In this document: positions 5,594 through 39,068 of the stretch, one piece after another | How positions within the stretch are numbered: position 1 is the first letter of the stretch | How the letters are laid out: each line of letters begins with the position of its first letter | From: a virus | Virus record (IMG/VR): IMGVR_UViG_3300034685_000408 | Coordinates: 1 to 49,932 of that record | DNA length: 49,932 nt | Reading direction: 5' to 3' (one strand) | Position numbers and translations under genes: made by a program | Notes under the pieces: generated by a model | Databases searched by the model: none | Told to the model about the DNA's origin: nothing | The model's input: the letters and a program-made list of their open reading frames with translations, nothing else

Positions 5594-6015
5594 AGGTAAG
5601 ATTTACGGTCCTGGGTGAACCGCAGGGGAAAGGGAGGCCGAAGTTCAGCAAGCGGGGAGACTTTGTAGTCACCAGGACACCGGACGAAACAGTTATTTAC
5701 GAGAATCTTATTCAGACGGAATTTTTAAGACAGTGCGGAAATGTGAGATTCAACGATAATGACTATCTTGATATGAGAATTATGGCCTATTATTCGATAC
5801 CTTCCAGTGCAAGCAAAAAGAAGCGTCGGATGATGATTGAAAAAGAGATAAGACCGACCAAAAAGCCGGATGCGGACAACATCATCAAGGTAGTAGCGGA
5901 TAGCCTCAACCAGGTAGCATACAGGGATGACTCGCAGATAGTGGACACGATGCTAAGAAAGTATTACTCAGAACAACCAAGAATTGAAGTGGTTATTCAG
6001 ACTACGAAAGAATAA
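5590..6015 (+). CDS. rusA: RusA-family Holliday junction resolvase
   Basis: The 141-residue protein has the usual RusA length and motifs: PQGKGRP near the N terminus, KKPDADN (D94, D96) with D104, and DDSQI (D113-D114), which supply the acidic metal-binding residues. RusA resolvases cut branched DNA and are a common phage counterpart to Bet/RecT recombination, clearing junctions before packaging. The GTG start overlaps the upstream stop. Confidence 0.9.
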   Translation: MKVRFTVLGEPQGKGRPKFSKRGDFVVTRTPDETVIYENLIQTEFLRQCGNVRFNDNDYLDMRIMAYYSIPSSASKKKRRMMIEKEIRPTKKPDADNIIKVVADSLNQVAYRDDSQIVDTMLRKYYSEQPRIEVVIQTTKE

Positions 6016-6028
6016 GGAGGATTATACT

Positions 6029-6382
6029 ATGAATCAGCAAAACGTATGGGCTTTAACGCTCAGTAGCGACACGTTCAATGCACTCAAGTCAGATTTCGAC
6101 CAGGTATTAAGGAAGACTCTTACCAATATGGAAAACAAAGAGAGTGAACAGGCAGAGCTTACAGTTAAACTGAAAATCTCTCTCATGAAAGAACAAGCTC
6201 CAAACTTCGATTCATTAATCCCAGGTGCACAGAGAGAAGTAATCAAACCTAAGTTTGACCACAAAGTAAGCTCGGTAATGCAGATTAAAGACGAGAAAAC
6301 GGGAACCTTAAGCGGCAATTATGAGTTAGTTTGGGACGGAGAACTCGGACAATACGTAATGAGGGAGATAAAAGACCCTTAG
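6029..6382 (+). CDS. Hypothetical protein ending at an in-frame amber codon
   Basis: The 117-residue protein starts at ATG 6029 behind AAGGAGG. The first half is helical; the second half resembles a beta domain (KPKFDHKVSSVMQIKD ... YELVWDGELGQYVMREIKDP). The frame stops at TAG 6380-6382 but stays open for another 96 codons to 6673, and no independent start with a ribosome site is visible there. If the TAG were CAG, the junction would read DPQLSIFEYD, where QLSIF resembles the bacterial beta-clamp-binding motif. Either a point mutation truncated the protein or the stop is read through at some rate. Confidence 0.75.
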   Translation: MNQQNVWALTLSSDTFNALKSDFDQVLRKTLTNMENKESEQAELTVKLKISLMKEQAPNFDSLIPGAQREVIKPKFDHKVSSVMQIKDEKTGTLSGNYELVWDGELGQYVMREIKDP

Positions 6383-6673
6383 CTTAGCATCTTTGAATAT
6401 GACAAAGAGGTTTATGATGAGGATGCTCTTAAAGGCAGGAAAGTCTTAAGCATTACTGGCTCAACAGAAGAATTTGTAGACGCAGATTACAGAATAGTGG
6501 ATGAGGATATGGAAGAAGACGAAGATGACAGCAATGATACTGAGGACGAAAACTTGCCTGACGATGAGCTGGAAGATGACGAAACGGAAAACGTTCAGGA
6601 TACGGACGAAGATTTTTACGACGGATACCAGTACGATAGTCCGGAGGAGGAAGCCAATGGAACTGCTATTTAA
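6383..6673 (+). pseudogene. In-frame acidic continuation after the amber codon
   Basis: This stretch continues the frame of the preceding gene from LSIFEYDKEVYDEDALKG to TAA 6671-6673. It contains VDADYRIVDED (nucleotides 6476-6508), nearly identical to VDADYHVVEED of Bet, then a strongly acidic tail rich in D and E. The ribosome site for the next gene (GGAGGAGG before 6657) lies inside its end. It is read as the disconnected C terminus of the 6029 gene, translated only by readthrough, or else decaying. Confidence 0.6.
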
Positions 6674-17068: not shown

Positions 17069-18994
17069 GTGAACGATTATAATGCTCGTAAAATAGCGCA
17101 GATGCAAAGATTGGAAAGAGGGAAGCAAATAATTGCCGGTAAGGTTGACAGAGCAGACAGCACATACCGAAGAGACGGATATGTCAATCTACTTAACAAG
17201 TACGGTACTGCGCAGGACAATACGACGGCATACTTTTTTGAGGGAGAGCCGACAGTACCGGATATGGACCTTGCCAGGCACTACGAAGGCGAAGGACTCT
17301 TCGCTAAAATAATTGACACCCCCGCCGAAGAGGCTGTGAAGCACGGGTTTGAGCTTGGCATCAACAATCCGGATATAGAAAGTTTTATCACAGATAGTCT
17401 TGACGAGCTGGATTGGGAGGAAAAAGCAGCTACAGCTATCAAGTGGGCTCGGCTTTACGGGGGAAGCCTCATAGTCATGCTGGTTGATGATGGAAGGGGG
17501 TTGGAGCAGCCATTAGACTGGAAAAACATCCGTAGCATAGATGAGCTAAGGGTATACGAAAGAGCAGTAGTGCAGCCGGACTATACCAACATCTACAATT
17601 ACGACCCGAAGGACCCAGCAAGAAGGACGACATCGAAATTCGGAATGCCGGAGTATTACCATGTTTTTAGTGCATACGGTACGTTTACAGTCCACGAAAG
17701 CAGGTGCTTGATATTCCGGAACGGCATCCTGCCAGAATACATCACTCAGTCGTATTATCGGTTCTGGGGAATACCGGAATATATAAGAATCAAGAGAGCA
17801 CTGAGGGAAACAATAACAGCCCACGGAGATGCAGTAAAACTGCTTGAACGTTCAGTACAGGCAATCTACAAGATGAAGAACCTGGCTCAACTCCTTGCCA
17901 CAAGCGATGGAGAAGACCAGGTTCTTAAGCGTTTGCAGGTAATCGACATGGCACGTGGCATTCTTAACAGCATATCAATTGACGCTGAGGGAGAAGACTA
18001 CAGCTTTCAGACATTCCAACTTTCAGGAGTAAAAGATGTAATAGACTCAACCTGCAATATGCTCTCTGCACTCACAAGCATACCACAGACGATACTGTTT
18101 GGGCGTTCGCCTGCCGGACAAAACAGCACAGGCGAGAGTGACCTGGAAAACTACTACAATTACGTCGAGAGGATACAGAAGCTGATGCTTAGAGGGAACC
18201 TCAAGACATTGATTGATGTTATTCTCCAGGCTGGACTTGCAAGCGGGAAAATACCTGAAATACCTGACTATAAGCTAAAGTTCTCACCATTGTGGAGCAT
18301 GAGCGACACTGAACAGGCTACAGTAGAAAGCACAAAAGCTCAGACCAGTTACACCAAAGCCCAAACAGCACAACTATACGTTGACATGGGTGCACTAGAC
18401 CCATCAGAGGTAAGGGCAGGACTTGCTAAGACGGAAGAATTTAACGTCGAAGACTTGCTCGATGAACAAGACATTGAAGATGAAGACTGGGGATTAGCGG
18501 GCAATGTTCAAGAACAGTTTGGAGCCGAAGGAGAGAAAGGGCCACTTTATGTCCCGCCAGATATGTTTGTGGAAAATGTGGAACAGCCCAATATGGATGA
18601 ATCGGCGTGTACTTCTGCTGCAACCCTGGTAGTGAAAGATGGCGAGATACTCATTGGTAGAAGAAGGGACGGAACCGGATGGTGTGGTCCGGGGGGTGGC
18701 ATTGAAGATGGCGAAACACCGGAACAGGCAGCAAGAAGAGAGCTGAATGAAGAGTTCGGGATAAAAGCAAATGAAATGATACCTGTCGGAGTGATGAACG
18801 GTTTACCGGAAAGATACGGAGTGCCGTTCATTTTCTTATGTACGGACTATGACGGAATCCCGAAATGTGACGGTAAGGAAATGGAGGATGCAAGGTTCTG
18901 CAAACTTGATGAGTTGCCTGAATTTCATTTGTTCCCGCCGTTCATGAAATCAGTATCCATGCTGTTAAAGGAGCTGAGACGTAAAGATGAATGA
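17069..18994 (+). CDS. Portal protein (DUF1073-like) fused to a C-terminal Nudix hydrolase domain
   Basis: Residues 1 to about 480 resemble DUF1073-type portals: ARLYGGSLIVML, the SIPQTILFGRSPAGQNSTGE loop and the following helical clip/crown region. From about residue 510 a separate domain begins (CTSAATLVVKDGEILIGRRR). It contains a complete Nudix box at 543-565: G543-x5-E549-x7-R557-E558-x2-E561-E562-x-G564. Both domains are in one uninterrupted frame. Twelve copies would sit in the portal ring, placing a nucleotide-hydrolysing domain at the vertex or ejected with DNA. NCBI also relates DUF1073 to Acb1-type anti-CBASS names. The GTG start follows GCGAGGTGAG. Confidence 0.85.
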   Translation: MNDYNARKIAQMQRLERGKQIIAGKVDRADSTYRRDGYVNLLNKYGTAQDNTTAYFFEGEPTVPDMDLARHYEGEGLFAKIIDTPAEEAVKHGFELGINNPDIESFITDSLDELDWEEKAATAIKWARLYGGSLIVMLVDDGRGLEQPLDWKNIRSIDELRVYERAVVQPDYTNIYNYDPKDPARRTTSKFGMPEYYHVFSAYGTFTVHESRCLIFRNGILPEYITQSYYRFWGIPEYIRIKRALRETITAHGDAVKLLERSVQAIYKMKNLAQLLATSDGEDQVLKRLQVIDMARGILNSISIDAEGEDYSFQTFQLSGVKDVIDSTCNMLSALTSIPQTILFGRSPAGQNSTGESDLENYYNYVERIQKLMLRGNLKTLIDVILQAGLASGKIPEIPDYKLKFSPLWSMSDTEQATVESTKAQTSYTKAQTAQLYVDMGALDPSEVRAGLAKTEEFNVEDLLDEQDIEDEDWGLAGNVQEQFGAEGEKGPLYVPPDMFVENVEQPNMDESACTSAATLVVKDGEILIGRRRDGTGWCGPGGGIEDGETPEQAARRELNEEFGIKANEMIPVGVMNGLPERYGVPFIFLCTDYDGIPKCDGKEMEDARFCKLDELPEFHLFPPFMKSVSMLLKELRRKDE

Positions 18995-32214: not shown

Positions 32215-33694
32215 TTATGGAGTTACTCCGGATGGTTTTGTTTTGAAAAGACTTGATACCATTATGGATACCATCTATGGAAAGCTTAAAGACGGATGGG
32301 GATTTGACCCTACTATTAATCCGCAGTCTCTTCTAAACGTTCTTGTAACATCTTTTGCCGACGAAATTGCTTCATTGTGGGAAGTTGGACAGGATGTATA
32401 CTACTCACAGTATCCATCGTCTGCTGAGGGCCTGAGTCTTGACAATGCTATGCAGTTTGGCGGAGTCACAAGATTAAAAAAGGCAAGGACGATATACTCG
32501 TTAAAATGTACCGGCGCAGACGGAACAAACATCTTGTACGGAAGCCTTGTTAAATCAACTACCCAACCGGCTAAGATGTTCCAATGTTCACGACTTCAAA
32601 CTATAAGTCGAAGCAATTTCAGAAGAATAAGGATTCGTCCTGTTGTGGGCGAAGGTACGATTGCAGAGCTTTATACCATTGCCATCAATAACGGAACATA
32701 TTCTTACGAGGCGCAAGAAGGGGATAATGAAGAAACGATTCTTAATGCCTTAAGCAATGCCATTACGGACACGGATTTTACAAAAACAGTTGCCGAAAGA
32801 GAGATAGAAGGAGTAACGCACTTTGAATTGACGATAGAGCACATTGGAGGGCAATCCTCGAACGTAATGGTTTTGTCCGATAACTTAATTGTTACGGAAT
32901 GCACATCCAACATCGTTTTTGAAAGCGTTGATTATGGTGAGGTAATTGTTCCCAACAACACCATAACGGAAATAGTTACAGTCATCAATGGCTTTTACTC
33001 CGTTACAAACGACATTGCTCCGGTCCGTGGTAGACTTACCGAAACAGATGTTGAAGCGAGACAGTCTTACATCAAAAGAATTGCTGTAAGGTCCAAGAAC
33101 ATGCTTGAGAGCATTACATCCGCCTTGTATGACAGCGTACAGGGAGTTACCGCAGCTATGGGTTACGAAAATTGCACAAGCACAACAGATTCAGAAGGAA
33201 GACCTCCTCACAGCATAGAGATTGTGGTTGATGGCGGAGATGATGGCGAAGTAGCCCAAGTAATCTTTAGCGAGAAAGCTAATGGAATCCAAACTTACGG
33301 CAGTACAACTATGGATGTAGCTGACGAGTTCGGGAATATACACAATATTAGTTTCAGCAGGCCAACATACAGATACGTCTGGATGAAAGTATCGCTCACA
33401 AGAAATACTGCGGAGGCAATTCCGCCGAATTACGCAGCAAGAACAAAATTAGCCATCATTGAAGACGGAAAGAATTTGAACGTAGGCCAAACCGTATTCT
33501 TGCAAAAGTTCCTTACGAACATTTACAAAAATGTCACCGGAGTTTCCTATATTTCCATTACCGCATGTACGACGGAGATTGAGTCACAGATTCCATCAGC
33601 TGAGGACTACACTTCTGACAATATAGTAATTGGGCAAAGGGAAAAGGCGGTGTTTGATGCAGCAAGAATCGAGGTGAATCTCGGTGGCAATTAA
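32207..33694 (+). CDS. Baseplate J protein (gp47-like)
   Basis: The 495-residue protein has the baseplate-J plan: an N-terminal helical region (GFVLKRLDTIMDTIYGKL), a central jelly-roll-like domain and a C-terminal core with VKSTTQPAKM, RGRLTETDVEARQSYIKR and GVTAAMGYENC. It forms the wedge of the baseplate. Overlaps the previous gene by 8 bases and the next by 11. Confidence 0.9.
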   Translation: MPDYGVTPDGFVLKRLDTIMDTIYGKLKDGWGFDPTINPQSLLNVLVTSFADEIASLWEVGQDVYYSQYPSSAEGLSLDNAMQFGGVTRLKKARTIYSLKCTGADGTNILYGSLVKSTTQPAKMFQCSRLQTISRSNFRRIRIRPVVGEGTIAELYTIAINNGTYSYEAQEGDNEETILNALSNAITDTDFTKTVAEREIEGVTHFELTIEHIGGQSSNVMVLSDNLIVTECTSNIVFESVDYGEVIVPNNTITEIVTVINGFYSVTNDIAPVRGRLTETDVEARQSYIKRIAVRSKNMLESITSALYDSVQGVTAAMGYENCTSTTDSEGRPPHSIEIVVDGGDDGEVAQVIFSEKANGIQTYGSTTMDVADEFGNIHNISFSRPTYRYVWMKVSLTRNTAEAIPPNYAARTKLAIIEDGKNLNVGQTVFLQKFLTNIYKNVTGVSYISITACTTEIESQIPSAEDYTSDNIVIGQREKAVFDAARIEVNLGGN

Positions 33695-34298
33695 AGATGA
33701 TTGGCTTAGCTGTATACCTCAGCAATTCCAAGACAAACGCAAACTTGAAGTACTTATCGGTGCTTTTTCCGATGAGCTACAGGAAGTTCATGACATGTTT
33801 GAACAGCTAAAAACGATGAGAGGACTTGATACTGCGACCGGACAACAACTCGACAATATAGGGGATATTGTTGTTTTAAGCAGAGCTCAGTCGGCCCTTT
33901 ATGCCGGAGTGCTCGACTTCGATGTAATCGACGATGAAAGGTATCGTTTATTCCTCAAATACAAAGCACTAAGAAACGCAAATCTTTGCACCTTTTCAGA
34001 GCTTGTTGCAGCATGTCGTCTTCTCTATAATTCGGAGATTGTATACTATAGGGAAGATAAAAACTATCCCGCAACATTCTTTCTAAATATCGGTGCAAAG
34101 TTTAGCAACGAAATACTCGGCTTGCTTCAAAGTTCCGATTTAACGATAAGACCTGCTGGAGTAACTGCAAATATAAGCTACTTCAATATGGAGTTTTTCG
34201 GTTTTTCTGACATGAACAGACTTGCACTTGGGTTCGGACAAGGGCCGTTTGCACAGTCTATTATCCAAGAACCACAAGAACCGGGAGGGGAGGTATAA
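33684..34298 (+). CDS. DUF2612-like tail protein (gpI position)
   Basis: The 204-residue protein (LEVLIGAFSDELQEVHDMFEQL, LDTATGQQLDNIGDIV, FRLFLK-like segment DERYRLFLKYK) has the layout of DUF2612/gpI proteins that connect wedge and fibre. GTG start overlaps baseplate J. Confidence 0.8.
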   Translation: MAIKDDWLSCIPQQFQDKRKLEVLIGAFSDELQEVHDMFEQLKTMRGLDTATGQQLDNIGDIVVLSRAQSALYAGVLDFDVIDDERYRLFLKYKALRNANLCTFSELVAACRLLYNSEIVYYREDKNYPATFFLNIGAKFSNEILGLLQSSDLTIRPAGVTANISYFNMEFFGFSDMNRLALGFGQGPFAQSIIQEPQEPGGEV

Positions 34299-34303
34299 GA
34301 TTT

Positions 34304-34885
34304 ATGGACCCTAATTTCAATATCACTTTTGCAGAGAATGGAAGCAGAGCGGCAATCTCAGATGAAGAGTGGGCCGGAGGTTGGGCGGCCATAGTTGGAG
34401 GTATTAACGGGATACCTACAGCACAGCAGTTTAATACTTTTGGCTATCTGATGGAGCAAAAAAGCAATATAGCAAAAGGGATAGCCGATAATTCCTGGAA
34501 TGCTTCTCAGTTAGCTGTCACGACCGCAAACCAGGCTACTTCAATCGCCAACACTGCTAATGCCAATGCCGACGATGCGAAGGCACAGGTTGTAAACGCT
34601 GTTGCTGCGGCAGCCCTTGCACAAAGTATGGCAAACTCGGCAAGCGATTCGGCAGCCCAAGCACAATCAAGTGCAGATGCAGCTTATTCATACGCAGAAG
34701 CAAACTATCAGCTTATACTGGCACTACAAAATTTGATAACGAACCATGAAGCTCGAATCAAAACTCTCGAAGATGCTCTCTTTAACGATATTATAGGAAA
34801 TCCCTTCACCATTCTATTTGATGACCTGAACGATGTTACGGTTACTGGCGTCTGGAATGTAGCGTTGCAGCGGATTGAATGTTAA
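34304..34885 (+). CDS. Tail fibre / adaptor with coiled-coil stalk
   Basis: The 193-residue protein has a small N-terminal domain (DEEWAGGWAAIVGGINGIPTAQQFN) and an alanine/asparagine/serine-rich helical repeat (about 75-150) typical of trimeric fibre stalks. It ends in NPFTILFDDLNDVTVTGVWN. It probably anchors the receptor-binding apparatus; the DGR target downstream would be its variable partner. Confidence 0.75.
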   Translation: MDPNFNITFAENGSRAAISDEEWAGGWAAIVGGINGIPTAQQFNTFGYLMEQKSNIAKGIADNSWNASQLAVTTANQATSIANTANANADDAKAQVVNAVAAAALAQSMANSASDSAAQAQSSADAAYSYAEANYQLILALQNLITNHEARIKTLEDALFNDIIGNPFTILFDDLNDVTVTGVWNVALQRIEC

Positions 34886-35148
34886 TGAACAGATACGCCT
34901 GCACAAAACAGGAGCTTTCATGCATACTCGGAAATCTGTTTACAGAAATTATGCCTCCATGCTGCCCGAAAGATAATGTGGTCGTTATCAAAGGGATAAC
35001 TTACAGCGGAAAGGAGGCATTATTTTTAATCCTTGATGATGGATTCGCTTATTCTGGAGACCGTGAGGACATCGAAAAAATAAGGGATAAGAGGTGCATT
35101 TATGAGAGAGCCTGCAAACAGAGAGCCTTCGGAATTGAATGTTATTAG
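34879..35148 (+). CDS. Small protein between fibre and Avd
   Basis: An 89-residue protein with seven cysteines and a short beta core (NVVVIKGITYSGKEALFLILDDG). It overlaps both the fibre stop and the Avd gene. No family recognised. ATG 34885 is an alternative start, as no strong ribosome site is seen before either. Confidence 0.6.
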   Translation: MLMNRYACTKQELSCILGNLFTEIMPPCCPKDNVVVIKGITYSGKEALFLILDDGFAYSGDREDIEKIRDKRCIYERACKQRAFGIECY

Positions 35149-35497
35149 CAAAGCAAAAGATTTGGTAAAGCATAGCTTTCTGATTACCAACGGGACCAGC
35201 AGGTATCCCAAAAAGATGAGGTTTACCCTGGTCAACCGGATACAGGATAAAGCTATGAATATATACGAATGTTTGCTTGAGGCTAACGAGCTAAACATCA
35301 AAGATCCTCAGCAGAAACCTGAGAGATTAAGTCTACAAGCAAAAGCTATAACTTATTGCAAGGAGCTTTTGTTTCTGGTAGAGCTATCCTTTGATATGCA
35401 GTATCTAAGTGCCAAGAGCTGCGAGTATTGGACGAAGAAAATACTTGATGTGAAATACATGACTTCGGCCTGGCTCAAAAAGGATAGGCAGCGATAA
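35102..35497 (+). CDS. avd: Avd, DGR accessory variability determinant
   Basis: The 131-residue protein is helical with charged, basic faces: SKAKDLVKHSFLITNGTSRYPKKMRFT, VNRIQDKAMNIYECLLEANEL and CKELLFLVELSFDM. This fits the four-helix Avd family, which forms a basic pentamer that binds the DGR reverse transcriptase and RNA. It ends 21 bases before the template repeat, in the order avd-TR-RT known from BPP-1-like DGRs. Confidence 0.85.
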   Translation: MREPANREPSELNVISKAKDLVKHSFLITNGTSRYPKKMRFTLVNRIQDKAMNIYECLLEANELNIKDPQQKPERLSLQAKAITYCKELLFLVELSFDMQYLSAKSCEYWTKKILDVKYMTSAWLKKDRQR

Positions 35498-35780
35498 ATC
35501 CTATTGGGTGCAGCTTGTAACGCTTCCAACGCCCACAACGTGCGCAACGTCAACTCCGATGGCAGCCTCAACAACAACAACGCCTACAACGGCAACAACG
35601 GCGTTCGGCCCGATTGAGAGGAAATTGAGACCGAGTAGTCTTTAAGACGAAAGCAGTAACCCTCTCTCAAGGAAGCTGCATCCATCCTTGCGGCACGAGG
35701 TAAACACATGATTGCCGATGTCGAGACGTTAACTCTCTATGAGTGAGGTCAAGACTACCAAACGGCAAGGAGGTTTTTTA
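35498..35780 (+). ncRNA. DGR template RNA region
   Basis: The 283 bases between avd and the reverse transcriptase hold no gene. They contain the template repeat (35519-35617) and a 163-base spacer with a hairpin (CAAGGA 35668-35673 with TCCTTG 35685-35690). In studied DGRs, the RNA from avd through TR and the following spacer is the structured template for cDNA synthesis. Ends of the RNA are unknown. Confidence 0.7.
35519..35617 (+). repeat. DGR template repeat (TR)
   Basis: The 99 bases align without gaps to the variable repeat at 37486-37584. All 14 differences fall on template adenines (7 A-to-T, 5 A-to-G, 2 A-to-C) and none on its other bases. The TR contains 30 adenines and is dominated by AAC codons (12 in the target frame), which can mutate widely without making stop codons. 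The last two differences (35613 and 35617) may be fixed IMH/IMH* differences, because both known variable copies have C at the first and a non-A base at the second. Confidence 0.95.
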
Positions 35781-36839
35781 ATGTATGAACAAGTTTATAA
35801 ATTTGAAAACCTTTATAATGCATTCAGGAAAACCAGGAAGGGAAAGCAATGGAAGAATACCACTGCTCGGTATGAGATTAACCTTTTAGAAGCTACAGCA
35901 CTGCTTTCCGAACAGCTACAATCGAAGACATACACAGTTTCTCCTTATACGGTTTTCTACGTTTACGAACCGAAAAAGAGAGAAGTCAAGACGAATTCTT
36001 TAAAAGATAAGGTTGTACAGGAAAGCTTGTGCACCCATGTTTTGGAACCGTTAATCGAACCGAGCTTTATTCTCGACAACTACGCATCACAGGTAGGGAA
36101 GGGAACGCATTTCGGTCTGAACAGACTTGCTGAATTCATGCGGCGATATTACAGGGAAAACGGCTTTGCAAACGGTTGGGTATTGAAATGTGATATTAAA
36201 AAGTATTTCTACAGGATTCAACATGAACCTTTGAAGCGCATGGTAAGAAAGTATATTAAAGAACCCGATGTGCTCTGGCTTGTGGATTTAATTATTGACA
36301 GCACAGAAGACCCTGGCATCCCGATAGGAAACCAAACAAGTCAGATTTTCGCATTGTTGTACCTGAATGGCATGGACCATCTTGTTAAAGATAAGCTCGG
36401 GGTTAAGTTTTATGGGAGGTATATGGACGATTTCTACCTCATCCACAAAGATAAGGATTTTCTCAGGAAATGCCTTGTGGACATTCAAAACCATGTCGGA
36501 AACCTTGGATTAGAGCTTAATGACAAAACTCAAATCTTCCCCTTGAAGAACGGCATTGATTTTCTTGGGTTTCACACCTATTTAACGGATACCGGAAAAG
36601 TAATACGTAAAGTCAGAAGAAGGAGCAAGAACAACTTTAGGCGAAAGCTCAAGAAATTCAAGGTGCTTGTAGAGAATGGAAAAATGACGCAGGACAGAGT
36701 GGAGTTGTCGTATCAAAGCTGGCGAGGTCATGTAGAGCACGGCAACTGTCACCACCTGCTCAGGAATATGGACGAACTCTACAGAAAATTATTCAATACT
36801 GAAAGGTCAGGTGATAAACCAAATGTCACAGCCAATTAG
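35781..36839 (+). CDS. DGR reverse transcriptase
   Basis: The 352-residue protein has retroelement RT motifs: CDIKKYF (D138 of the catalytic triad), PIGNQTSQ (motif 4, 181-188, the DGR hallmark), YMDD (214-217) and LGLELNDKTQ/IDFLGF with a basic C-terminal thumb. It makes error-prone cDNA from the template RNA with A-specific misincorporation, aided by Avd. The ATG follows AAGGAGG at 6-8 bases. Its last codons overlap the target gene. Confidence 0.97.
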   Translation: MYEQVYKFENLYNAFRKTRKGKQWKNTTARYEINLLEATALLSEQLQSKTYTVSPYTVFYVYEPKKREVKTNSLKDKVVQESLCTHVLEPLIEPSFILDNYASQVGKGTHFGLNRLAEFMRRYYRENGFANGWVLKCDIKKYFYRIQHEPLKRMVRKYIKEPDVLWLVDLIIDSTEDPGIPIGNQTSQIFALLYLNGMDHLVKDKLGVKFYGRYMDDFYLIHKDKDFLRKCLVDIQNHVGNLGLELNDKTQIFPLKNGIDFLGFHTYLTDTGKVIRKVRRRSKNNFRRKLKKFKVLVENGKMTQDRVELSYQSWRGHVEHGNCHHLLRNMDELYRKLFNTERSGDKPNVTAN

Positions 36840-38541
36840 CAATTTGCCTGTTGGTGCTCTTGTTAAAGACACCACGACGAAGTATTATGGTTCGCCTATA
36901 ATCTGGACGATTGCGGACAAAAACCATGCAGGCTATCCGGCTAATTCCGTTACGTTGCTATCAAAGTATATTCTCACATTGAAATGTTCGGACGCCAAGG
37001 AACCATCAAACAGCAACAGCGACCGTCAAAGCTATGGAAACAACAGATATCTATACAGTAACATAAGGCAATGGCTAAACAGTGCGGCTGCTGCTGGAGC
37101 ATGGTACACAGCTCAGCATAGTGCTGACGCTCCTCCTACAAACGCAAATGTCTGGAGTAATTACAACGAATATGATGCACAAGCAGGATTCCAAAATGAT
37201 TTCTCCGCAAACTTTAGAAACGCCCTGCTAAGCACATCCCTTACTGTTGTCAAGGCAAGCGTAGATGGAGGCGGAACAGAAACCGTTGCCGACAAGGTCT
37301 TCTTATTAAGCACTACCGAGGTTGGACTTGCGGACGAAGGTTATGCAGAAGGAAGCAAGTTGGCATTGTTTTCTGATAACGCAAGCAGGCTGGCTTATCC
37401 TACAGCTTTGTGTGTAAGCAACAGTGAGTACACCAATGCAAGCTTAAATACCAGCTCTCCTTGGTACTGGTGGCTTCGTACTCCATACGCTTCCAACGCC
37501 CGCTACGTGCGCCGCGTCAACTCCGATGGCAGCCTCTACTACAACGTCGCCTACAGCGGCGTCAACGGCGTTCGGCCCGCTTGTAATCTTCCATCTTCAA
37601 TCTTGGTATCTGATTCGCCAGATGGAGACGGAGCATACACGATTGTATGGAACCAGCCACCAACTACGCCCAGTTCTATTACAGTTCCTACGACAGTGCG
37701 TGGAGGACAGACGCTTGCAATTTCATGGGGAGCATCAACAGACCCGGATGGAAACCTTGCCGGATATAGATTGGAACGTAGCGTAAATGGCGGAGCATAC
37801 TCCCAGATTTACCAGGGGACGCAACTAAGTTATACGGATAACATTACCTACGGATGGACAACTGTACAGTACAGAGTTAAAGCATATGATACGGCAGAAG
37901 CTGAATCCGGATACCAAACAAGTCCAAGCCGAACCGTTATCAATAACACAGCACCAGTTATTTCGGGAAGTGACGGAAACCTCGGAACAAAGTCGGGAGA
38001 CTTCTCACAAACCTATACCGTTACAGATGCTGAATCAGATGCAGTAACAGTTGTAGAAAAGATAGATGGAGTTCAGCTTAGGAGCTACACTGTGACGCTG
38101 GGGGCAACCAATACATTCTCAGTTTCAGGATTAACCTTCATGAAACTGCTGAATGGCAGTCATACCTTGACTGTTACTGCAACTGATAGCGCAGGAGCAT
38201 CCTCAACAAGAACGTGGACCTTCACCAAATCAGTTACTTCATTGAGCATTGTCCTATCTGCTCCAATGGCAACGGATGCTATGGTAACGAAATGTATAAT
38301 CAATGTTACAAGAGCAATTCCTGCCGGAGCTGACTTCAAAGTTGAGGTATGCAACAATGGATTTGATGCTTCTCCTGCATGGGAAGATTGCACAAGTGCA
38401 GTACTTGGAGGACGAAAATTTTTCCTTTCAAATACCACCAAAACAGCAGCACAATGGGGCTTCAATGTAAGAGTAACCGTGTCAAGGAATGGTGCCATAG
38501 GCGATTGTTATGTATCAGGGATAGGAGGTAATTTTGAATGA
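36823..38541 (+). CDS. DGR target protein with internal variable lectin-like domain and Ig-like domains
   Basis: The 572-residue protein starts with a C-type-lectin-like (DUF6273-like) domain: NNRYLYSNIRQWLN, FLLSTTEVGL and SPWYWWLRTPYAS. The variable repeat (VR) encodes residues 222-254. It is followed by GVRPA and then an FN3-like domain (about 280-370), a second Ig-like domain (about 375-470) and a C-terminal domain. The VR is therefore internal, unlike most DGR targets, where it ends the protein. Probably a tail-tip receptor-binding protein. The ATG 36823 overlaps the RT end; GTG 36811 is possible. Confidence 0.9.
   Translation: MSQPISNLPVGALVKDTTTKYYGSPIIWTIADKNHAGYPANSVTLLSKYILTLKCSDAKEPSNSNSDRQSYGNNRYLYSNIRQWLNSAAAAGAWYTAQHSADAPPTNANVWSNYNEYDAQAGFQNDFSANFRNALLSTSLTVVKASVDGGGTETVADKVFLLSTTEVGLADEGYAEGSKLALFSDNASRLAYPTALCVSNSEYTNASLNTSSPWYWWLRTPYASNARYVRRVNSDGSLYYNVAYSGVNGVRPACNLPSSILVSDSPDGDGAYTIVWNQPPTTPSSITVPTTVRGGQTLAISWGASTDPDGNLAGYRLERSVNGGAYSQIYQGTQLSYTDNITYGWTTVQYRVKAYDTAEAESGYQTSPSRTVINNTAPVISGSDGNLGTKSGDFSQTYTVTDAESDAVTVVEKIDGVQLRSYTVTLGATNTFSVSGLTFMKLLNGSHTLTVTATDSAGASSTRTWTFTKSVTSLSIVLSAPMATDAMVTKCIINVTRAIPAGADFKVEVCNNGFDASPAWEDCTSAVLGGRKFFLSNTTKTAAQWGFNVRVTVSRNGAIGDCYVSGIGGNFE
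37486..37584 (+). repeat. DGR variable repeat (VR)
   Basis: Copy of the template repeat with 14 adenine-only differences, encoding AAC-to-TAC, AAC-to-GTC, AAC-to-CGC and similar replacements. The final part, GGCGTTCGGCCCG (37567-37579), matches the TR exactly and is inferred to belong to the initiation of mutagenic homing element. Surface tyrosines, serines and arginines dominate the varied residues, as usual in C-type-lectin ligand sites. Confidence 0.93.
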
Positions 38542-38699
38542 GCCTTAAACGTAAAGTGGACAGTATTGTAGAGCTCAAAGAAAAAAATCAAAAAATAGCT
38601 GAGCTTGAACAGCGCAACCAGGAATTAGAGCAGCAAGTCACCGATTTGCAGATTGCTCTTTGTGAGGTATATGAAACTATGATAGGAGGTGCGAACTGA
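38538..38699 (+). CDS. Small coiled-coil protein
   Basis: A 53-residue protein (MSLKRKVDSIVELKEKNQKI...) with a leucine/isoleucine heptad helix. It overlaps the target stop with ATGA and has ATAGGAGG upstream. Short coiled-coil proteins of this kind commonly follow tail-fibre genes in clostridial phages. Confidence 0.6.
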   Translation: MSLKRKVDSIVELKEKNQKIAELEQRNQELEQQVTDLQIALCEVYETMIGGAN

Positions 38700-38800
38700 T
38701 GGCAAAAATCTATGCCAATCTAATCAAGAAGGGTATCAAAACTATTGATGATGTCCCTGAAAATCTTAAAGAAGAAGTGGAGAGGTTGCTCAATGAGTAA
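38699..38800 (+). CDS. Short CD1375/XkdX-like protein A
   Basis: A 33-residue protein beginning MAKIYANLIKKGIKTIDDVP, which recalls CD1375/XkdX-like small proteins at phage tail ends. It overlaps the previous stop (TGATGG) and has GGAGG upstream. A paralogue lies 50 bases downstream. Confidence 0.6.
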   Translation: MAKIYANLIKKGIKTIDDVPENLKEEVERLLNE

Positions 38801-38849
38801 CCTTTTCTTTTTCCTCGCAAAGATGCTGCTTAGGAAGGAGGTGGAACAG

Positions 38850-38966
38850 ATGGCAGTAGTATATGCAACTCTTATTGTTAAGGGTATAAAAACCCTTGAA
38901 CAGGTTCCTGTTCTAATTAGAGACCAGGTTAAAGCAATTCTGGAGGCACTTGAAGTCGAAGCTTGA
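38850..38966 (+). CDS. Short CD1375/XkdX-like protein B
   Basis: A 38-residue protein, MAVVYATLIVKGIKTLEQVP..., clearly similar to its neighbour (shared YA-LI-KGIKT--VP). A strong AAGGAGGTGG lies 8 bases upstream. The frame stays open from ATG 38793, which overlaps the preceding stop, so a longer 57-residue form with a hydrophobic start is possible. Confidence 0.55.
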   Translation: MAVVYATLIVKGIKTLEQVPVLIRDQVKAILEALEVEA

Positions 38967-38984
38967 TGAAAGCATATGGATTAA

Positions 38985-39027
38985 GGACGTAAGTTTGCCG
39001 ACCGGCATTCTTACGTCCTATTTATTT
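38985..39027 (+). terminator. Intrinsic terminator after the tail-end genes
   Basis: GGACGTAAG (38985-38993) pairs perfectly with CTTACGTCC (39010-39018); an inner GCC/GGC pair extends the stem. TATTTATTTG follows. It separates the DGR/tail genes from the lysis cassette. Confidence 0.75.
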
Positions 39028-39068
39028 GTATTGATGTGCCTCAAACAATAAAGAAGGGAGTGAAGCAT

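Follow-up and report, generated by a model that had tools for sequence, protein, structure and literature searches.

The DNA analysed in this study, referred to as the window, is the whole 49,932-nucleotide stretch of IMG/VR virus record IMGVR_UViG_3300034685_000408 (positions 1 to 49,932), and it carries a diversity-generating retroelement (DGR) in which one template repeat (TR) very probably serves two target genes. Target 1 is a tentaclin, and target 2, cut off at the start of the window, would be a non-virion and probably intracellular binder. An earlier sequence-only reading had described a complete DGR with avd, TR, reverse transcriptase (RT) and target gene in that order, along with past mutagenic homing. 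Open reading frame (ORF) and profile evidence bear out the order and the positions, and the description as a complete element holds up, as RT, Avd, the TR and its variable repeat (VR) and a C-type lectin (C-lectin) target are all present, and the VR changes between strains while the TR does not. That reading had also implied a single target; target 1 is borne out, but a second target very probably exists and was missed, lying as it does where the window is cut off. The features concerned are as follows.

1-17, + strand: 3' end of VR2, in the remote target (match to TR; the bases that vary fall just upstream of base 1)
1-180, + strand: C-terminus of target 2, a DUF6273-only protein of the phrog_9958 family (94% protein identity to L105, residues 1-50)
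158-832, + strand: membrane-anchored lytic-transglycosylase-like protein (PHROG and NCBIfam matches; its start overlaps the end of target 2)
35102-35497, + strand: avd, DGR accessory protein (phrog_3206 "Avd protein of DGR", 1e-26)
35519-35617, + strand: TR, 99 bases (repeat comparison; identical in contig L004)
35613, + strand: fixed A (TR) / C (VR1, 37580) difference, resembling that between IMH* and IMH (initiation of mutagenic homing) sites; C in VR1 of the window and L004 and in VR2 of record G001
35781-36839, + strand: DGR-type RT (IGNQTSQ and YMDD motifs; phrog_1423, 1.5e-131)
36823-38541, + strand: target 1, tentaclin (DUF6273, 5e-38; phrog_10993, 6e-243; structure model)
37486-37584, + strand: VR1, in frame in the middle of target 1 (departs from TR at 14 sites, each a TR adenine)

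When the window was searched with its own TR, an extra match was found at bases 1-17, 94% identical to TR positions 82-98, and no further VR was found in the window beyond VR1 and this end of VR2. Base 1 of the window corresponds to TR index 81 and the last mutable adenine to index 79, i.e. two bases earlier; the window holds only the invariant last 17 bases of VR2, about 35 kb from the cassette. A full-length relative of target 2 (219 aa) is encoded at 4526-5185 of L105, which is part of the 50-kb record G001, and G001 is collinear with window positions 1-32463 at 96-97% identity. Compared with the window TR, all 12 differences in the VR2 of G001 fall at TR adenines. In its tail-tip/DGR region G001 carries another module, which includes an unrelated DGR (TR 5669-5784, VR 6295-6410), and this DGR was rejected as the source of the G001 VR2 for lack of similarity. 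Because that VR2 fits the window TR and not the DGR of its own record, a module swap seems to have left this target without its cassette. Window 32463-39052, covering the tail tip and the DGR, has been exchanged as a block between the window phage and G001.

The same relationship between a remote VR2 and the TR was found across relatives carrying a DGR and a remote target 2. Of the VR2 differences from the TR of the same record or genome, 175 of 181 fall on TR adenines in 14 phage records (summed over 15 VR2 copies) and 128 of 131 in 12 bacterial genomes, i.e. 303/312 together; a 13th bacterial genome was left out as it has the same sequence as G006, and the two sets may otherwise overlap. The distance from RT to target 2 in these relatives is approximately 8-37 kb. 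Record G024 begins and ends inside target 2, and across the 161 bases shared by its two ends there are 14 mismatches, every one at a TR adenine within VR2. Two pairs of close relatives differ in VR2 and nowhere outside it (10 differences for L172/L175 and 12 for L201/L204). In G012 and G013 an early DUF6273-like gene is present without similarity to VR2, none of the TR loci examined in G073 and G089 fits a VR2, and in G030, which has both targets, the scripted search found no TR/VR pair. At the level of sequence comparison, these data establish a two-target structure with adenine-specific variation in both targets for this phage group, DGR-type variation of VR2 being seen in relatives of the window phage. 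A contig can start or stop exactly at a DGR variable repeat, and remote targets are therefore easily lost from metagenome assemblies.

For target 1, TR and VR1 differ at 14 of 99 bases, all at TR adenines (chance 4e-9), just as the sequence-only reading had it, although 11 of these reflect mutagenesis. Three were discounted: 35519 and 35617, which are repeat edges, and 35613, which is fixed. Since VR1 of the window, VR1 of L004 and VR2 of G001 all have C opposite 35613, this position appears to reflect an IMH/IMH*-like distinction and not a mutagenic change. After the discount, 11/11 differences are at TR adenines (p = 2e-7), and a chance repeat as the source of the pair was rejected (p 2e-7 to 4e-9). 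Strain-level variation at template adenines had been set beforehand as a test and was indeed found: between the window and L004, an IMG/VR contig aligned with it over 8.7 kb at 96.8% identity, TR shows 0/99 differences and VR1 17/99, all at TR adenines (Fisher p 1e-8), with neighbouring genes differing by approximately 0.4-5.6%. These comparisons support the notion that past mutagenic homing altered VR1 in the window phage. In the same alignment, the 5' flank of VR1 (37305-37476) differs at 26 of 186 bases and the 3' flank at 2 of 216; the divergent 5' flank may have arisen by recombination between tentaclin alleles.

The cassette itself is a DGR of an already published kind (tentaclin DGR). 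The RT is of the DGR type, an assignment made by motifs and by profile and structure matches; the profile search of 35781-36839 that had been proposed gives phrog_1423, and among solved structures the best match is 8ub7 (8.7e-41), which we take to be the Bordetella phage DGR enzyme, followed by a group II intron RT at 5e-13. A retron, group II or DRT RT was rejected, as the matches to those are weaker. The RT ORF opens at 35739, but the ATG at 35781 has a strong ribosome-binding site (GGAGG) ahead of it; for target 1 a GTG ORF runs from 36811, the ATG at 36823 being the more likely start. Avd matches NCBIfam DivGenRetAVD at 1.6e-12, below the cut-off, and its match to Pfam bAvd is likewise below the curated cut-off. 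AAC makes up 12 of the 33 TR codons, as previously counted, and mutation of its adenines gives access to 15 amino acids without ever creating a stop. By the mechanism established for the family, RT and Avd would reverse-transcribe the TR RNA, random bases would enter opposite TR adenines during this step, and the mutated cDNA would replace the VR of a target gene; adenine-mutagenised cDNA and its retrohoming in vivo are here carried over by analogy with that family. The RNA fold of the TR region showed nothing unusual (z -1.29).

Gene order places target 2 in the early, or replication, module. In the window it is followed by genes for exonucleases, RecT, a replisome organizer and a DnaC-like loader; in nd4 the very next gene is annotated as DNA polymerase III, and the gene for single-stranded DNA-binding protein (SSB) lies downstream, and in Toutatis it is upstream of a replication initiation gene. 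An early marker lies within 4 kb in 52 of 67 target 2 loci, a count biased upwards by some early markers having been picked from target 2 neighbours, and a structural marker in 1/67; with the same marker set, tentaclin loci gave 0/29 and 15/29, respectively. Target 2 is also found fused to nucleotide-handling domains, namely a dUTPase (L205), a MazG-type pyrophosphatase (L180, G006 and L195) and DUF3310 (nd12), and a VR2 matching the phage's own TR has been shown among these for G006 and nd12. Further fusions were sought among dUTPase relatives, nearly all of which were plain dUTPases. Four records (G034, G035, G037 and G042) carry two tandem target 2-like genes directly upstream of avd-TR-RT, these cassettes lie among SSB, DnaC or methyltransferase genes, and no tail target was found in them. 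The AlphaFold2 model of target 2 (pLDDT 90) has as its sole strong solved match 9qa6, an IgA peptidase with a DUF6273 domain; weak matches to the Legionella Lcl C-terminal domain and to C-type lectins are consistent with the published C-lectin assignment. No defence-family match for target 2 was found in PADLOC.

The early position, the nucleotide-enzyme fusions and the early-only cassettes speak for intracellular conflict rather than host attachment, and we infer from this genomic evidence that a non-virion, probably intracellular role is favoured for target 2. As a small, signal-less C-lectin protein of the early module, it would act as a hypervariable binder, and its most likely use would be in intracellular conflict between phage and host or between phages. 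The broader proposal, with chances slightly better than even, is that many Firmicutes phages hypermutate an early, non-virion and intracellular C-lectin that is repeatedly fused to nucleotide-handling domains and would evolve rapidly for conflict inside the cell, and that in one group this seems to be the DGR's only job. The text of PMC10743442 that concerns nd4 and nd12 proposes instead that target 2 binds a host receptor, which would give the two-target DGR a second receptor-binding protein on the virion, comparable to Mtd of BPP-1. The C-lectin fold with a hypervariable hairpin is what such a protein would have, and those authors' own hypothesis speaks for it; we nevertheless regard it as unlikely, as most loci lie in the early module with none or one near structural genes, the fusions are to nucleotide-handling domains, and target 2 is without the stalk parts of Mtd, as far as these are described in PMC10743442. 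Several points count against the two-target reading with an intracellular binder. Target 2 of the window phage is cut off, with VR2 deduced from relatives; the marker count is biased as stated above; the dUTPase and MazG fusion records L205 and L180 are without an RT; and the missing signal peptide does not discriminate, since virion proteins are also without one. Moreover, a membrane-anchored hydrolase as a recurring neighbour could hint at an envelope role. Such peptidoglycan hydrolases (of the SLT, SleB or 3D type as judged by eye) occur within 4 kb of target 2 in 20/67 loci (e.g. L164, L168 and L200), and these genes, including that at 158-832 in the window, sit in the early module.

Two further explanations concern the element as a whole. 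It might be a single-target DGR switching host tropism via one receptor-binding protein, the match at bases 1-17 being incidental. Such a design would follow the classic BPP-1-like logic and would suit the tail/lysis location of target 1 and the fact that VR1 is the only complete VR in the window; however, the 17-base match lies in a frame 94% identical to the full target 2 of the collinear G001, whose VR2 fits the window TR throughout, and a remote VR2 is widespread in relatives, making this explanation very improbable. Slightly less remote, yet still improbable, is the possibility that the DGR has decayed into inactivity and that its VR differences date from long ago. No DNA hairpin of the BPP-1 type more stable than chance was found 3' of VR1 (fold of 37560-37680 against shuffles, z -0.16). 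A hairpin 3' of the VR is an auxiliary feature and is not known to occur in all DGRs. Published induction data for the phage Lelie are also without an activity peak (PMC11792537). Against decay, the ORFs of avd and RT are intact, strains otherwise approximately 3% apart have identical TRs but differ at 17/99 bases of VR1, and the contig breaks exactly at the variable edge of VR2, as expected for a mixed population.

Target 1 is likely a tail receptor-binding protein, judging by its domains and gene position. DUF6273 spans residues 45-262 and contains the VR, and immunoglobulin (Ig)-like matches lie past residue 379; this architecture of a DUF6273 C-lectin plus Ig-like domains has been named tentaclin, and the C-lectin assignment of DUF6273 published, in the parts of PMC10743442 dealing with these proteins. 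The C-lectin tip on its Ig-like stalk would bind host or environmental ligands. The sequence-only reading had taken target 1 as the receptor-binding candidate of the phage, and this is plausible in view of the position of the gene, after baseplate-like genes and before the endolysin gene, and the resemblance of the Ig part to a solved tail-fibre protein. The PHROGs label of its family (phrog_10993, 6e-243), by contrast, is Hoc-like head decoration. The label, the Ig-like domains and the Faecalibacterium literature (PMC5883640) would fit a capsid decoration or a mucus- or environment-binding adhesin, for which we see a small but real chance, the location between baseplate-like and lysis genes and the tail-fibre match speaking against it. 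The best Foldseek match for the DUF6273 fold is the DUF6273-containing peptidase 9qa6, C-lectin matches being weak. For the tentaclin tip (36823-37600), the nearest solved relative is the DUF6273 domain of this gut-bacterial IgA peptidase (1.5e-8), and DUF6273 therefore also occurs in a secreted bacterial enzyme. Two short, similar ORFs lie 3' of the tentaclin gene at 38700-38966 (MAKIYANLIKKGIKTIDDVPENLK... and MAVVYATLIVKGIKTLEQVPVLIR...), resembling, by eye, small XkdX-type proteins. Elsewhere in the window, the portal protein (17069-18994; portal 2.5e-225) has a C-terminal MutT/NUDIX-like domain (residues 508-624, 5e-17).

Among known systems, the two-target tentaclin DGRs of the metagenomic gut phages nd4 and nd12 (PMC10743442), which rank among the nearest annotated relatives of the window, are like the window phage in the order avd-TR-RT-tentaclin and in having a DUF6273 plus Ig target 1 and a remote DUF6273-only target 2, according to the sections that describe them. 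Upon re-testing, 9/10 (nd4) and 13/13 (nd12) of the VR2 differences fall at TR adenines. They are different phages, and those sections propose receptor binding without discussing the place of target 2 among replication genes; they call it unclear what role the diversification of two genes with different functions plays, a question on which the second target bears. The Faecalibacterium phages Lelie and CP11 (PMC11792537) have large and small DUF6273 targets as in the window phage, with the Lelie homologue of target 2 at the matching genome place, and FP_Toutatis (PMC5883640) has a remote small target with 13/14 VR2 differences at TR adenines, as computed here; target 2 of the Faecalibacterium phages is only approximately 37% identical at the protein level to the window type. 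BPP-1 of Bordetella (mtd, avd, brt) shares mechanism and parts with the window DGR, but it has a single C-terminal VR in Mtd, whereas in the window VR1 lies mid-gene before Ig domains and a remote second target very probably exists. The DGR targets in NACHT/ternary conflict systems (PMC10907252) provide a precedent for targets linked to conflict rather than to surface attachment, although those systems are chromosomal, belong to multicellular bacteria and have different targets. The closest precedent for a non-structural DGR target is Quimbyvirus (PMC8008677), which infects Bacteroidetes and has a frameshifted RT, unlike the window phage, but likewise pairs one structural with one distal non-structural C-lectin target, the latter located beside defence/counter-defence genes on the opposite strand.

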